Below, in pieces: positions 16,097 through 21,330 of a stretch of DNA of 64,000 nucleotides. Each line of letters opens with the position of its first letter. Position 1 is the first letter of the stretch. The notes under the pieces are model-generated. The model was not told the origin of the DNA. It worked only from the letters and a program-made list of their open reading frames with translations, and did no database searches. Position numbers and translations under genes: made by a program. This stretch comes from Streptomyces zingiberis (GTDB lineage: Bacteria; Actinomycetota; Actinomycetes; Streptomycetales; Streptomycetaceae): contig NZ_JAATEN010000014.1 in the NCBI RefSeq assembly GCF_012034935.1, forward strand, positions 62,001-126,000, written 5' to 3'.

Positions 16097-17308
16097 ATGC
16101 CGTTGTCCCCTGAGGACGTTCGGAACAAGCAGTTCACGACCGTCCGCCTCCGTGAGGGCTATGACGAGGACGAGGTCGATGCCTTCCTCGACGAGGTCGA
16201 AGCCGAACTGACCCGGCTGCTGCGCGAGAACGAGGACCTGCGGGCGAAGCTGGCGGCCGCCACCCGCGCCGCCGCCCAGAACCAGCAGCAGGGCATGCGC
16301 AAGCCGCCGGAGCAGCAGGACCGGCAGGGCGGACCGGTGCCCGCCGCCATATCGGGCCCGCAGCCGGTGCCTCCCCAGCAGCAGATGGGCCCGCCCCAGC
16401 TGCCCGGTGGAGCACCCCAGCTGCCTGCCGGCCCCGGTGGACACGGCGGACCGCAGGGCGGTCACGGCGGACCGCAGGGCGGTCACGGCGGTCCCCAGGG
16501 CGGTCACGGCGGTCCCCAGGGCGGCCCCGGCGGCCACATGGGTGGTCCCGGTGGTCCGGGTGGCCCCGGTCAGCACATGCAGCCGCACCAGGGTGGCCCC
16601 GGTGGCCACATGGGTGGCCCGATGGGTGGTCCGGGTGGTCCGGGTGGCCCCGGTCAGCACATGCAGCCGCACCAGGGTGGCCCCGGTGGCCACATGGGCG
16701 GCCCGATGGGCGGCCACGGCGACGGCGGCGCCTCGCGCGTGCTGTCCCTGGCGCAGCAGACCGCGGACCAGGCGATCGCGGAGGCCCGTTCCGAGGCCAA
16801 CAAGATCGTCGGCGAGGCCCGCAGCCGTGCCGAGGGCCTGGAGCGGGACGCCCGCGCCAAGGCCGACGCGCTGGAGCGGGACGCCCAGGAGAAGCACCGC
16901 GTCGCGATGGGCTCCCTGGAGTCCGCCCGCGCCACGCTGGAGCGCAAGGTCGAGGACCTGCGCGGCTTCGAGCGGGAGTACCGCACCCGGCTGAAGTCCT
17001 ACCTGGAGAGCCAGCTCCGCCAGCTGGAGAGCCAGACGGACGACTCGCTGGCGCCGTCCCGCACAGCTCCGTCCGCCCCGTCGCTGCCGCCGTCGCCGTC
17101 GATGGCGGGCGCCGGCTCGATGGGCGGCCCGGGCATGGGCGGCCAGTCGATGGGCGGCCCCTCCGGTGGCCCGTCCTACGGCGGGCAGCAGCAGATGTCC
17201 CCGGCGATGACGCAGCCGATGGCGCCGGTGCGCCCGCAGGGCCCGTCGCCGATGCAGCAGGCGCCCTCGCCGATGCGCGGGTTCCTCATCGACGAGGACG
17301 ACAACTGA
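16097..17308 (+). CDS. divIVA: Polar growth determinant DivIVA (Wag31)
   Basis: DivIVA marks negative membrane curvature at hyphal tips and recruits the polar growth machinery. The 403-residue protein has the conserved membrane-binding N-domain (PLSPEDVRNKQFTTVRLREG, DEVDAFLDEVEAEL). A Gly/His/Pro/Gln/Met-rich linker of about 150 residues follows, then a second coiled coil (about 215-315) and a Gly/Met/Pro-rich tail. The linker is built from in-frame DNA repeats. ATG 16097 follows a GAGGTGAAGAG site. It closes the dcw cluster and is followed by a bidirectional terminator. Confidence 0.96.
   Translation: MPLSPEDVRNKQFTTVRLREGYDEDEVDAFLDEVEAELTRLLRENEDLRAKLAAATRAAAQNQQQGMRKPPEQQDRQGGPVPAAISGPQPVPPQQQMGPPQLPGGAPQLPAGPGGHGGPQGGHGGPQGGHGGPQGGHGGPQGGPGGHMGGPGGPGGPGQHMQPHQGGPGGHMGGPMGGPGGPGGPGQHMQPHQGGPGGHMGGPMGGHGDGGASRVLSLAQQTADQAIAEARSEANKIVGEARSRAEGLERDARAKADALERDAQEKHRVAMGSLESARATLERKVEDLRGFEREYRTRLKSYLESQLRQLESQTDDSLAPSRTAPSAPSLPPSPSMAGAGSMGGPGMGGQSMGGPSGGPSYGGQQQMSPAMTQPMAPVRPQGPSPMQQAPSPMRGFLIDEDDN
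16436..16519 (+). repeat. 21-bp tandem repeat, 4 copies, in divIVA linker
   Basis: Four units at 16436-16456, 16457-16477, 16478-16498 and 16499-16519 encode GGHGGPQ four times. They are near identical at DNA level, so the linker probably changes length by slippage or recombination without frame loss. Confidence 0.95.
16568..16714 (+). repeat. 84-bp direct repeat in divIVA linker
   Basis: A 28-codon unit beginning GQHMQPHQGGPGGHMGGPMG starts at 16568 and again at 16652. The second copy is complete for about 21 codons and then diverges. It lies directly after the 21-bp array and makes most of the rest of the low-complexity linker. Confidence 0.9.
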
Positions 17309-17480: not shown

Positions 17481-20400
17481 TCAGGCCCTGCGGAGACGGA
17501 AGGCGAGGGACAGACCCTCGTCGTGGAACGGCTCGCCGAAGGCCGCATCCTCGGGCAGCGGGGGACCGGCCGGGGCGAAGTCCACCGCCAGCACCTCGTC
17601 GGCGATCAGGCCGGCGTGCTCGGTGAGGGCGGCCCGGGTCTCCGGCTCCGGTGACTCCCAGCGCAGGACGATACGGTCCGCCACGTCGAGACCGCTGTTC
17701 TTGCGCGCCTCCTGGATGAGGCGGATGGCGTCCCGGGCGAGGCCCGCCCGGCGCAGCTCCGGGGTGATCTCCAGATCCAGGGCGACGGTGGCGCCCGTGT
17801 CCGAGGCGACCGACCAGCCCTCGCGCGGGGTCTCGGTGATGATCACCTCGTCCGGGGCCAGGGCGACGGTCTCCCCGTCCACCTCGACGGAGGCCGTGCC
17901 CTCGCGGAGCGCGCGGGAGAGCGCGGCGGCGTCCGCCCCGGCGATCGCCCGGGCCACCGCCTGCACGCCCTTGCCGAACCGCTTGCCCAGCGCACGGAAG
18001 TTGGCCTTCGCGGTGGTGTCGACGAGGGAGCCGCCGACGGCCGACAGCGAGTCCAGCGAGCTGACGTTGAGTTCCTCGGTGATCTGGGCCCGCAGCTCCG
18101 CCGGGAGTCCGTCGAAACCGGCCGCCGCGACCAGCGCCCGGGACAGCGGCTGCCGGGTCTTCACCCCGGACTCGGCGCGGGTCGCCCGGCCCAGCTCCAC
18201 CAGCCGCCGCACCAGCGCCATCTGCTCCGGCAGATCCGCGCCGGCGGGTGAGGCGCCCGGCTCCGGCCACGTGGAGAGATGGACCGAGTCCGGTGCGCCG
18301 GGGGTGACCGGACGGACGAGGTCCTGCCAGACCCGCTCGGTGATGAACGGCACCAGCGGGGCCATCAGCCGGGTCACCGTCTCCACGACCTCGTGCAGGG
18401 TGCGCAGCGCCGCGGGGTCGCCCTGCCAGAAGCGGCGGCGGGAGCGGCGCACGTACCAGTTGGAGAGGTCGTCGACGAAGGCGGAGACCAGCTTGCCGGC
18501 GCGCTGGGTGTCGTACTCCTCCAGCGCGCGGGTGACCCCGGCGACCAGGGTGTCCAGCTCGCCCAGCAGCCAGCGGTCCAGCACCGGGCGGTCCTGGGGG
18601 GCGGGGTCCGCGGGGCCCGGGGCCCAGCCGGCGGTGCGGGCGTAGAGGGCCTGGAAGGCGACGGTGTTCCAGTAGGTGAGGAGGGTCTTGCGGACCACCT
18701 CCTGGATGGTGCCGTGGCCCACCCGGCGCGCGGCCCAGGGGGAGCCGCCGGCGGCCATGAACCAGCGCACGGCGTCGGCGCCGTGCCGGTCCATCAGCGC
18801 CATCGGCTCCAGGATGTTGCCCAGGTGCTTGGACATCTTCCGGCCGTCCTCGGCGAGGATGTGGCCCAGGCAGACCACGTTCTCGTAGGAGTTCCGCCCG
18901 AAGACCAGGGTGCCGACGGCCATCAGCGTGTAGAACCAGCCGCGGGTCTGGTCGATGGCCTCCGAGATGAACTGCGCCGGGTAGCGCTTCTCGAAGAGCT
19001 CCTTGTTGCGGTACGGGTAGCCCCACTGCGCGAAGGGCATCGAACCCGAGTCGTACCAGGCGTCGATGACCTCGGGCACGCGTTCGGCCACGAGCGAGCA
19101 GCCCTCGGCGGTGCAGGGGAAGGTCACCGCGTCGATGTAGGGGCGGTGCGGGTCCAGGCCGGACTGGTCGGCGCCGGTGAGCACGGAGAGTTCGTCCAGC
19201 GAGCCAACGCAGGTCAGGTGGTTCTCCGCACAGCGCCAGATGGGCAGCGGCGTGCCCCAGTAGCGGTTGCGGGAGAGCGCCCAGTCGATGTTGTTGTTCA
19301 GCCAGTCGCCGAAGCGGCCGTGCTTGACCGACCCCGGGTACCAGGCGGTGCGCTCGTTCTCCCGCAGCAGGGCGTCCTTGACCTGCGTGGTGCGGATGTA
19401 CCAGGACGGCTGGGCGTAGTAGAGCAGCGCGGTGTGGCAGCGCCAGCAGTGCGGGTAGCTGTGCTCGTACGGCAGGTGGCGGAAGAGCAGGCCGCGGCGG
19501 TCGAGGTCGGCGACCAGATCCTCGTCGGCCTTCTTGAAGAACTGGCCGCCCACCAGCGGCAGGTCCTCCTCGAAGGTCCCGTCGGGGCGCACCGGGTTGA
19601 CCACCGGCAGGCCGTAGCCGCGGCAGACCCGGAGGTCGTCCTCACCGAACGCGGGGGACTGGTGCACCAGGCCGGTGCCGTCCTCGGTGGTGACGTACTC
19701 GGCGTTCACCACGTAGTGCGCGCCGGTGGCGGTCGCGGGGCCGGCGGCGTCCGCCTCCGGGGCGGGGAAGTCCAGCAGGGCGAACGGGCGCTCGTAGGTC
19801 CAGTACTCCAGCTCGGCGCCGGTGAAGGACTGCCCGGTGGCCTCCCACCCCTCGCCCAGCGCCTTCCCCAGCAGCGGCTCGGCGACGACGAGCCGCTCGC
19901 GGCCGTCGGTGGCGACGACGTAGCGCACCGCCGGGTGGGCGGCGACCGCCGTGTTGGAGACCAGGGTCCACGGGGTCGTCGTCCAGACCAGCAGCGACGC
20001 CTCGCCGGCCAGCGGGCCGGAGGTCAGCGGGAAGCGGACGTAGACCGAGGGGTCGACCACCGTCTCGTACCCCTGGGCGAGTTCGTGGTCGGAGAGGCCG
20101 GTGCCGCAGCGGGGGCACCAGGGCGCGACCCGGTGGTCCTCCACCAGCAGGCCCTTGCCGTGGATCTGCTTCAGCGACCACCAGACGCTCTGCACGTACT
20201 CGGGGTCCATGGTGCGGTAGGCGTCGTCGAGGTCGACCCAGTACCCCATGCGCGTGGTGAGCTGCGCGAAGGCGTCGGTGTGGCGGGTGACCGACGCGCG
20301 GCACTTGGCGTTGAACTCGGCGATGCCGTACGCCTCGATGTCCTTCTTGCCGTTGAAGCCCAGCTCCTTCTCCACCGCCAGCTCCACCGGGAGCCCGTGG

Positions 20401-20711
20401 CAGTCCCAGCCGGCCTTGCGGCCCACGTGGTAGCCGCGCATGGTGCGGAAGCGGGGGAAGACGTCCTTGAAGACGCGGGCCTCGATGTGGTGGGCGCCGG
20501 GCATGCCGTTGGCGGTCGGCGGGCCCTCGTAGAAGACCCACTCCGGCCGCCCCTCGGACTGCTCCAGGGAGCGGGCGAACACCGTGTTCTCGCGCCAGAA
20601 GTCGAGTACGGCGTGCTCCAGGGCGACCAGGTCGACCTGCGCGGGAACCGGGCGGTACCGGGACTGGGGCTGCTCCTGGGCCTGCGGCCCGGGGCTCGGC
20701 TGTGAACTCAT
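17481..20711 (-). CDS. ileS: Isoleucyl-tRNA synthetase
   Basis: IleRS charges tRNA-Ile and edits valine. The 1076-residue protein has the class I HIGH equivalent in MPGAHHIEAR, a metal site region WCPRCGTGLSDHE, the CP1 editing domain, KMSK in DGRKMSKHLGN and an anticodon-binding C-half. The length and signature match the eukaryote-like IleRS class that in other bacteria is associated with low mupirocin sensitivity; that trait is inferred. ATG 20711 is preceded by GGAGGAAG, which is paired in the leader hairpin described separately. Expression is therefore probably set by uncharged tRNA-Ile. Confidence 0.98.
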   Translation of the reverse strand: MSSQPSPGPQAQEQPQSRYRPVPAQVDLVALEHAVLDFWRENTVFARSLEQSEGRPEWVFYEGPPTANGMPGAHHIEARVFKDVFPRFRTMRGYHVGRKAGWDCHGLPVELAVEKELGFNGKKDIEAYGIAEFNAKCRASVTRHTDAFAQLTTRMGYWVDLDDAYRTMDPEYVQSVWWSLKQIHGKGLLVEDHRVAPWCPRCGTGLSDHELAQGYETVVDPSVYVRFPLTSGPLAGEASLLVWTTTPWTLVSNTAVAAHPAVRYVVATDGRERLVVAEPLLGKALGEGWEATGQSFTGAELEYWTYERPFALLDFPAPEADAAGPATATGAHYVVNAEYVTTEDGTGLVHQSPAFGEDDLRVCRGYGLPVVNPVRPDGTFEEDLPLVGGQFFKKADEDLVADLDRRGLLFRHLPYEHSYPHCWRCHTALLYYAQPSWYIRTTQVKDALLRENERTAWYPGSVKHGRFGDWLNNNIDWALSRNRYWGTPLPIWRCAENHLTCVGSLDELSVLTGADQSGLDPHRPYIDAVTFPCTAEGCSLVAERVPEVIDAWYDSGSMPFAQWGYPYRNKELFEKRYPAQFISEAIDQTRGWFYTLMAVGTLVFGRNSYENVVCLGHILAEDGRKMSKHLGNILEPMALMDRHGADAVRWFMAAGGSPWAARRVGHGTIQEVVRKTLLTYWNTVAFQALYARTAGWAPGPADPAPQDRPVLDRWLLGELDTLVAGVTRALEEYDTQRAGKLVSAFVDDLSNWYVRRSRRRFWQGDPAALRTLHEVVETVTRLMAPLVPFITERVWQDLVRPVTPGAPDSVHLSTWPEPGASPAGADLPEQMALVRRLVELGRATRAESGVKTRQPLSRALVAAAGFDGLPAELRAQITEELNVSSLDSLSAVGGSLVDTTAKANFRALGKRFGKGVQAVARAIAGADAAALSRALREGTASVEVDGETVALAPDEVIITETPREGWSVASDTGATVALDLEITPELRRAGLARDAIRLIQEARKNSGLDVADRIVLRWESPEPETRAALTEHAGLIADEVLAVDFAPAGPPLPEDAAFGEPFHDEGLSLAFRLRRA

Positions 20712-20720
20712 CGGGGGCTT

Positions 20721-21001
20721 CCTCCGGCGGACACGTGCTGGTGGTGAGGTGCTGTCCGTCGGAGGGACGAGAGCCGTCGGGCCCCCGCGGTACCACCCTC
20801 CTTGGCCGGGAACCGCCGGCGGCGGTCCTCGGCCCCCTCATTGGGGTGCGCTGCCGGCTCTACTCGCCCGCGGGGGCTTTCCTCCGGCGGCTCCGGGGTG
20901 ATCTTCGCTCCGTGCACGCCCCCGGGCTCGCACCGTCCCCGGGTCGCTCCTGGCTGCGTACGGAGGTACTCGTCCCCTTCCACGCCCTGCGCGGGCCCCA
21001 G
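20721..21001 (-). promoter_or_regulatory. Translational T-box riboswitch of ileS
   Basis: Read on the minus strand, the leader contains the T-box AGGGTGGTACCGCGG at 20799-20785, whose TGGT can pair with the ACCA end of uncharged tRNA-Ile. An ATC codon about 115 nt upstream (in GAAGATCACC) is the candidate specifier. CCCTCC at 20766-20761 can pair either with GGAGGG (20801-20796) around the T-box, or, as part of a 13-bp stem with one mismatch, with TGTCCGCCGGAGG (20733-20721) that holds the ileS Shine-Dalgarno. Uncharged tRNA would favour the first pairing and free the ribosome site. The 5' limit of stem I is approximate. Confidence 0.9.
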
Positions 21002-21330
21002 TGTACGGGGCCGGGCGGGCGGCGGGGCGCGGGGCCGGCGGCGGGGGTGGCCGCGGGACCCTCGCGGGTGGCGGGCGTGCTCCCGTCCGCACCCCCGGTG
21101 CCGGATTACCGGCCGGGCAGCGGGGCACAACGGATGCAGGCTCGTCCCGGCAGGCCGGAGAGGGGCCCGCCGCAGGCGGAAAGCCCGCGGAGGGTCGCCG
21201 GGGGGCCGGCGGAGGGCCGGTGGAGGAGGTCGGGACGGTCCGGCGTGCCCCGTTGCCGCCGTCCCGGAGTCGACTTATCGTCCCAGCACGATTAACCACA
21301 AGATCACAACAATGTCGGGAGGTCGCCGGG

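Follow-up and report, generated by a model that had tools for sequence, protein, structure and literature searches.

Among T-box riboswitches, transcription termination is generally the output of Classes I and II. Classes III and IV mostly control translation initiation; in these two, Stem I is short or intermediate and the interdigitated double T-loop motif (IDTM) is absent (PMC10482949). A canonical long Stem I is found in a few translational T-boxes, and binding of the tRNA elbow may be dispensable for translational T-boxes (PMC7583486). For Actinobacteria, Seliverstov et al. proposed in 2005 that translational T-boxes precede ileS and carry a hairpin that sequesters the Shine-Dalgarno (SD) sequence, and S. 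avermitilis and S. coelicolor were among the genomes used (PMC1262725). The ileS T-boxes of Nocardia farcinica and M. tuberculosis have been co-crystallised with tRNA-Ile (cited in PMC7583486). TBDB used a covariance model of its own to look for translational T-boxes in Actinobacteria and does not predict the sequestrator stems (PMC7778990). Here we analyse a stretch of 64,000 nucleotides from Streptomyces zingiberis (the window; contig NZ_JAATEN010000014.1, positions 62,001 to 126,000), in which the leader of ileS is very probably a translational T-box riboswitch, of the type found in Streptomyces, that senses tRNA-Ile. Sherwood et al. (PNAS, 2015) reportedly also dealt with actinobacterial ileS translational T-boxes, according to papers that cite them.

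The leader can be compared with three described systems. With the Class III T-box of N. farcinica ileS it has in common the ileS target, the tRNA-Ile ligand, Stem II and translational control; the N. farcinica element differs in its short Stem I, apical-loop specifier and absence of the IDTM (PMC10482949). With Class I elements of the Bacillus subtilis tyrS type it shares a long Stem I, two distal T-loop motifs, an internal specifier loop and a Stem II with S-turn-like strands. Class I is generally terminator-based, whereas the leader has no visible terminator. No essential difference separates it from the actinobacterial ileS T-boxes, as these are described in PMC1262725: a T-box lies before ileS, an SD-sequestering hairpin replaces the terminator and an anti-sequestor forms the alternative. 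The switch type is not new, having been published since 2005, and the leader is an ordinary, well-conserved example of it. An initial annotation of the window, made from the sequence alone, was right in substance and silent on this earlier literature. A search of titles and abstracts, with subscription literature mostly outside its scope, found no experimental study of the Streptomyces ileS leader; in the accessible portion of PMC12452182, Streptomyces is named in connection with glycine riboswitches.

Parts of the ileS leader and its predicted tRNA ligand

A complete T-box lies on the minus strand at 20721-20985, upstream of ileS, and its core reads GGAGGGTGGTACCGCGG. The initial annotation had placed the element at 20721-21001, which is right to within about 16 bases, the matched Stem I beginning at 20985. 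It had also called the core and an ATC specifier, and both were found where it had put them (ATC at 20902-20900). The parts of the leader and the gene it precedes are as follows.

20890-20985, minus strand: Stem I, long form (Rfam RF00230 positions 7-103; covariation in 53 sequences)
20967-20970, minus strand: AGTA, 5' strand of the specifier loop (GACnAGTA in 81/81 leaders)
20944-20948, minus strand: AGCGA, AG-bulge T-loop in the distal part of Stem I; by motif, it makes up half of the IDTM (81/81)
20928-20934, minus strand: GGTGCGA, distal T-loop, second half of the IDTM by motif (81/81)
20900-20902, minus strand: ATC specifier, complementary to the tRNA-Ile anticodon GAU (GAA(n0-2)ATCA in 81/81)
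20854-20887, minus strand: Stem II, with S-turn-like strands GGAGGAA and GAGTAGA (both motifs in 81/81; pairing by inspection)
20835-20847, minus strand: ACCCCAATGAGGG, probable Stem IIA/B (F-box) region (strict pattern in 78/81)
20804-20834, minus strand: Stem III hairpin (first base pairs with last in folds, 81/81)
20796-20801, minus strand: GGAGGG, 5' arm of the anti-sequestrator (RNAalifold, 43 leaders)
20785-20799, minus strand: T-box core, AGGGTGGTACCGCGG (GGTGGTACCGC in 80/80 named loci)
20792-20795, minus strand: TGGT, which fits the ACCA-3' end of uncharged tRNA-Ile (discriminator A)
20761-20766, minus strand: CCCTCC, shared by the 3' arm of the anti-sequestrator and the start of the sequestrator (CGTCCCTCC in 81/81)
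20753-20765, minus strand: CCTCCGACGGACA, 5' arm of the sequestrator (complementarity; class-wide permutation tests)
20721-20733, minus strand: TGTCCGCCGGAGG, 3' arm of the sequestrator, ending in the SD (complementarity)
20721-20725, minus strand: GGAGG, SD of ileS, 9 nt ahead of the ATG (read from the sequence)
17481-20711, minus strand: ileS, isoleucine--tRNA ligase of 1076 aa, the gene under the predicted control (NCBIfam TIGR00392)

IleS scores 861.5 bits against the NCBIfam TIGR00392 ileS model (cut-off 621.4), its ATG start occupies 20711-20709 on the minus strand, and the organism's own genome has one ileS, the next match being a relative with no more than 33% identity. The covariance-model check suggested in the initial annotation found Stem I: RF00230 matches 20985-20890 over model positions 7-103 of 219 (42.4 bits, E 4.9e-8), and a second match covers the Stem III and anti-sequestrator end at 20842-20763 (model 156-216, 21.9 bits, E 0.0093). 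Both values come from a search of 601 bases with permissive settings. The leader has three of the features that mark RF00230 members, namely a Stem I with specifier loop matched by the covariance model, a specifier codon that agrees with the amino acid handled by the downstream gene product and with a host tRNA, and a UGGN bulge (TGGT) that fits the tRNA acceptor end with its discriminator A.

The predicted ligand is encoded in the same genome, in which Rfam gives 63 tRNA matches and ARAGORN was used to read 54 tRNA genes in 32 stretches. One of the 54 is a tRNA-Ile with anticodon GAT. It has A as its discriminator base and its gene does not encode the CCA, so the ACCA end of the mature tRNA-Ile fits the TGGT bulge. 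Some CAT genes called as Met could be candidates for the minor tRNA-Ile, and a typed tRNA-Ile-like pattern had no match in the genome.

Conservation was assessed in 81 leaders, comprising the window and 80 named loci (L004-L083) that belong to the best 80 of at least 580 IleS relatives; 79 of these are from Streptomyces and one is from 'Actinobacteria bacterium OV320'. The core GGTGGTACCGC is present in 80/80 named Streptomyces ileS loci, and the ATC specifier, the core, the shared CCCTCC (as CGTCCCTCC) and the SD are present in all 81 leaders. Nine of the ten motifs tested occur in 81/81 and the F-box-like one in 78/81. Stem III and the loops vary, and the specifier, the bulge and the shared strand are invariant.

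Two pairings of one strand and their covariation

The same CCCTCC (20766-20761) can pair in two mutually exclusive ways, as the initial annotation had read, and both pairings are established at the level of complementarity. In the anti-sequestrator it pairs with GGAGGG (20801-20796), which directly adjoins TGGT (20795-20792); RNAalifold found this helix unaided in 43/43 leaders. In the sequestrator, CCTCCGACGGACA pairs with TGTCCGCCGGAGG at 12 of 13 positions with a single A.C mismatch, and the SD GGAGG lies inside the helix, so that the 13-bp stem with one mismatch described earlier holds. Shuffling the bases between arm and SD singly, with the SD fixed, produced a 12-of-13 helix 4 times in 20,000. 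The SD-side strand reads CCGTTGGAGG instead of CCGCCGGAGG in 11 of the 81 leaders; in all 11 of these an 11-bp helix is complete where the window has its A.C mismatch. The sequestrator fold is computed to be more stable than the anti-sequestrator fold both in the 104-nt switch region alone (-46.2 versus -40.5 kcal/mol) and in the 292-nt leader (-152.3 versus -142.4 kcal/mol), so the computed default is OFF. An OFF default would be as expected for a switch that is turned ON by uncharged tRNA.

Stem I and, across the taxonomic class, the sequestrator are backed by covariation. Stem I was tested with the Rfam pairing as structure in an alignment (A1) of the window and 52 of 53 references, hand-picked from 95 to thin near-identical rows; the longer L135 was dropped. 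In these 53 sequences 95.8% of cells are paired, and 7 pairs and 34 cells are changed on both sides. The covariation score is 0.124 compared with 0.068 in shuffles, and none of 500 shuffles was as high on any of five measures. When the structure was slid along the alignment as a control, only 44.5-56.8% of cells were paired.

The class-wide test used loci from 60 genomes, of which 56 gave a match. The best matches yielded 30 loci, one being the window's own, and weaker IleS relatives of about 40% identity lie outside the set. The test covered 22 leaders; of the other 29 loci (L118-L146), it excludes L118-L120 (same genus), L124, L132, L133 and L140 (without a recognised core) and L146 (in which the orientation motif was not detected). 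The arms of a leader pair better with each other than with those of other leaders: the mean is -17.6 kcal/mol for own arms and -13.5 kcal/mol for swapped arms (462 swaps), and 0 of 2000 permutations reach the observed own-arm sum. The difference persists without L126 and the near-duplicate L123 (-17.5 versus -13.3, 0/5000 permutations) and with the downstream stretch shortened to 45 nt (-17.5 versus -13.0, 0/5000). The best duplex falls on an SD-like strand in 20/22 leaders. These leaders are not independent, as L122 and L123 are near-identical and others are related, and the permutation counts are for this reason not exact probabilities. The anti-sequestrator, read by eye in a mixed-family alignment of the switch region (A3), is changed on both sides in L138 (AGAGGG/CCCTCT) and L143 (GAAGGG/CCCTTC).

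By analogy with the studied family, we infer that the leader binds tRNA, responds to its charging and affects translation. Stem I would read the tRNA-Ile anticodon through the ATC specifier, and its distal T-loops would probably grip the tRNA elbow. The free ACCA end of uncharged tRNA would pair with the TGGT bulge and stabilise the GGAGGG:CCCTCC helix. With CCCTCC held in the anti-sequestrator, the SD would be unpaired and ileS translated. With charged tRNA the anti-sequestrator would not be held, CCTCCGACGGACA would pair with the SD strand, and initiation would drop.

Predicted output of the switch and alternative explanations

Several results weigh against a tRNA-responsive translational switch. 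Both RF00230 scores lie below the gathering score of 93. The stability of the leader fold is ordinary (z -0.72), with 23/100 shuffles folding as well. Among Streptomyces leaders alone, covariation in the sequestrator does not rise above that of shuffles in 42 distinct rows, from an alignment (A2) of the window and 42 Streptomyces leaders; 85.8% of cells are paired compared with 85.9% in shuffles, 350/500 shuffles reach the observed percentage, and 49/500 reach the observed covariation score. In the class-wide set, the best duplexes of L126 and L128 lie in coding sequence, off the SD, and the own arms of L128 and L129 pair little or no better than swapped ones, 17 and 15 of the 21 alternative partners, respectively, doing at least as well. 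The sequestrator gives no covariation signal in Streptomyces because its strands hardly vary (6/12 pairs are constant). Folding energy alone is uninformative because overall stability is unremarkable against shuffles, and whole-leader folding energy was rejected as evidence.

At the curated cut-off Rfam has no match in the window, which appears empty in a default scan because both scores fall under the gathering score. With E up to 10, RF00230 matches the leader and only one other place in the genome. In a sample of the order, 147/147 genomes are matched at E 0.01 or below and 0/147 above the cut-off, counted per genome and independently of position beside ileS. In a sample of the phylum, 82/149 genomes have a match and 28/149 have one above the cut-off. 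Scores below the cut-off are therefore normal for genomes of the order sample, and the general Rfam model, when run with the default cut-off, misses their GC-rich T-boxes.

The best-surviving alternative, though an unlikely one, is that the main output is transcriptional, through a terminator or through Rho loading on the untranslated leader or early ileS mRNA, and that SD masking is secondary. Rho-dependent polarity would be invisible in the sequence, and a Rho-dependent effect may act beside translational control. However, a scan found no terminator-like site at the leader, and across the 81 leaders no T-run in the 130 nt downstream of the core is longer than 3. The 3' arm in the window also covers the SD itself, and in 20/22 class leaders it covers an SD-like strand. 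The leader has what defines a translational T-box, an SD-sequestrator that excludes the anti-sequestrator, and has no intrinsic terminator. Homology, conservation, covariation and the lack of a T-run support the earlier statement that the sequence shows control at translation initiation by tRNA-Ile rather than by a terminator, although 'shows' was too strong a word.

It is very improbable that the leader is a relic, with its T-box anatomy inherited and its switching lost in this species. The RF00230 score under the gathering cut-off and a GC-rich leader no more stable than shuffles would fit such a relic, but the specifier, bulge and shared strand stay invariant across 81 leaders while Stem III and the loops vary, and the genome has the matching tRNA-Ile. 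Chance complementarity can practically be dismissed: short helices are common in G+C-rich Streptomyces leaders, but the order-sample matches, the conservation in 81 leaders, the shuffle test, the covariation of Stem I and the class-wide permutations all oppose it.

The locus, related T-boxes and the sensor class

One further signal precedes the T-box.

21000-21005, minus strand: TACACT, a -10-like box directly upstream of Stem I (TANACT in 81/81 Streptomyces leaders)

TANACT stands 24-28 nt ahead of GACnAGTA in 81/81 Streptomyces leaders, and a consensus promoter scan found no two-hexamer sigma-70 match at the leader. The convergent neighbour of ileS, at 16097-17308 on the plus strand, encodes a Gly- and Gln-rich coiled-coil protein that is DivIVA-like by inspection.

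The second RF00230 place in the genome is a full-length match (C17:54694-54926, equal to L001:1501-1733; 43.8 bits, E 1.2e-7) with an Asp-like specifier GAC, upstream of an NCBIfam aspartate--tRNA(Asn) ligase match. Its bulge is TGGA, and G is the discriminator in both tRNA-Asp genes that were read. The aspartyl-tRNA synthetase (AspRS)-like gene that follows is split between frames in the assembly. This T-box may be a decaying copy because of the misfit of TGGA with discriminator G and the frame-split gene. Related T-boxes at L084-L086, L088-L092 and L102 stand ahead of genes that begin like the same AspRS, named by profile for L084 only. They have a TGGT or TGGC bulge and mostly a GAAGAC specifier context. 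By eye, CCCAAGGG and CCCTTGG strands ahead of the start codon suggest SD masking in AspRS-type leaders too. At L093 a seryl-tRNA synthetase match (TIGR00414, 361.8 bits) follows a T-box whose specifier is the Ser-like TCC and whose bulge is TGGC.

Among the class ileS loci, the T-box core is present in 25/29 (24/28 oriented loci and L146), and all 25 leaders with a core have the ATC specifier. Of the 25, 15 (three from the same genus) have a long Stem I that carries the two T-loop motifs, and 10 have the ultrashort form, with ATC in a CATCACC context. In L124, L132, L133 and L140, four of the 28 oriented loci, the pattern used found no core.

The Streptomyces leaders depart from the short or intermediate, IDTM-free Stem I of Classes III and IV, as AGCGA and GGTGNRAGCCCGG are present in 81/81; the distal loop is also aligned by Rfam. 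By motif, they share with Class I a long, IDTM-bearing Stem I and the S-turn of Stem II, and they lack the transcription-terminator output of that class. Because the mostly translational Classes III and IV lack the IDTM and a long Stem I occurs in few translational T-boxes, the S. zingiberis leader is, judged by its motifs, the less common long-Stem-I form among translational T-boxes. The long Stem I is the one point of some interest in the leader, the best-studied translational T-boxes having no elbow-binding element. The motifs of a Class I sensor occur together with a predicted translational output in 81/81 leaders, and it is possible, though rather doubtful, that Streptomyces ileS leaders truly combine such a sensor, with elbow-binding distal T-loops and a Stem II S-turn, with control of translation. 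The long-Stem-I translational form has been less studied than the ultrashort form and lends itself, as a natural case, to testing the contribution of elbow binding. Should the T-loops be functional, the view that translational T-boxes can do without elbow binding because they face no time limit would fail in Streptomyces. In that case, Streptomyces may need fast tRNA capture, for example ahead of Rho or RNases acting on untranslated mRNA.
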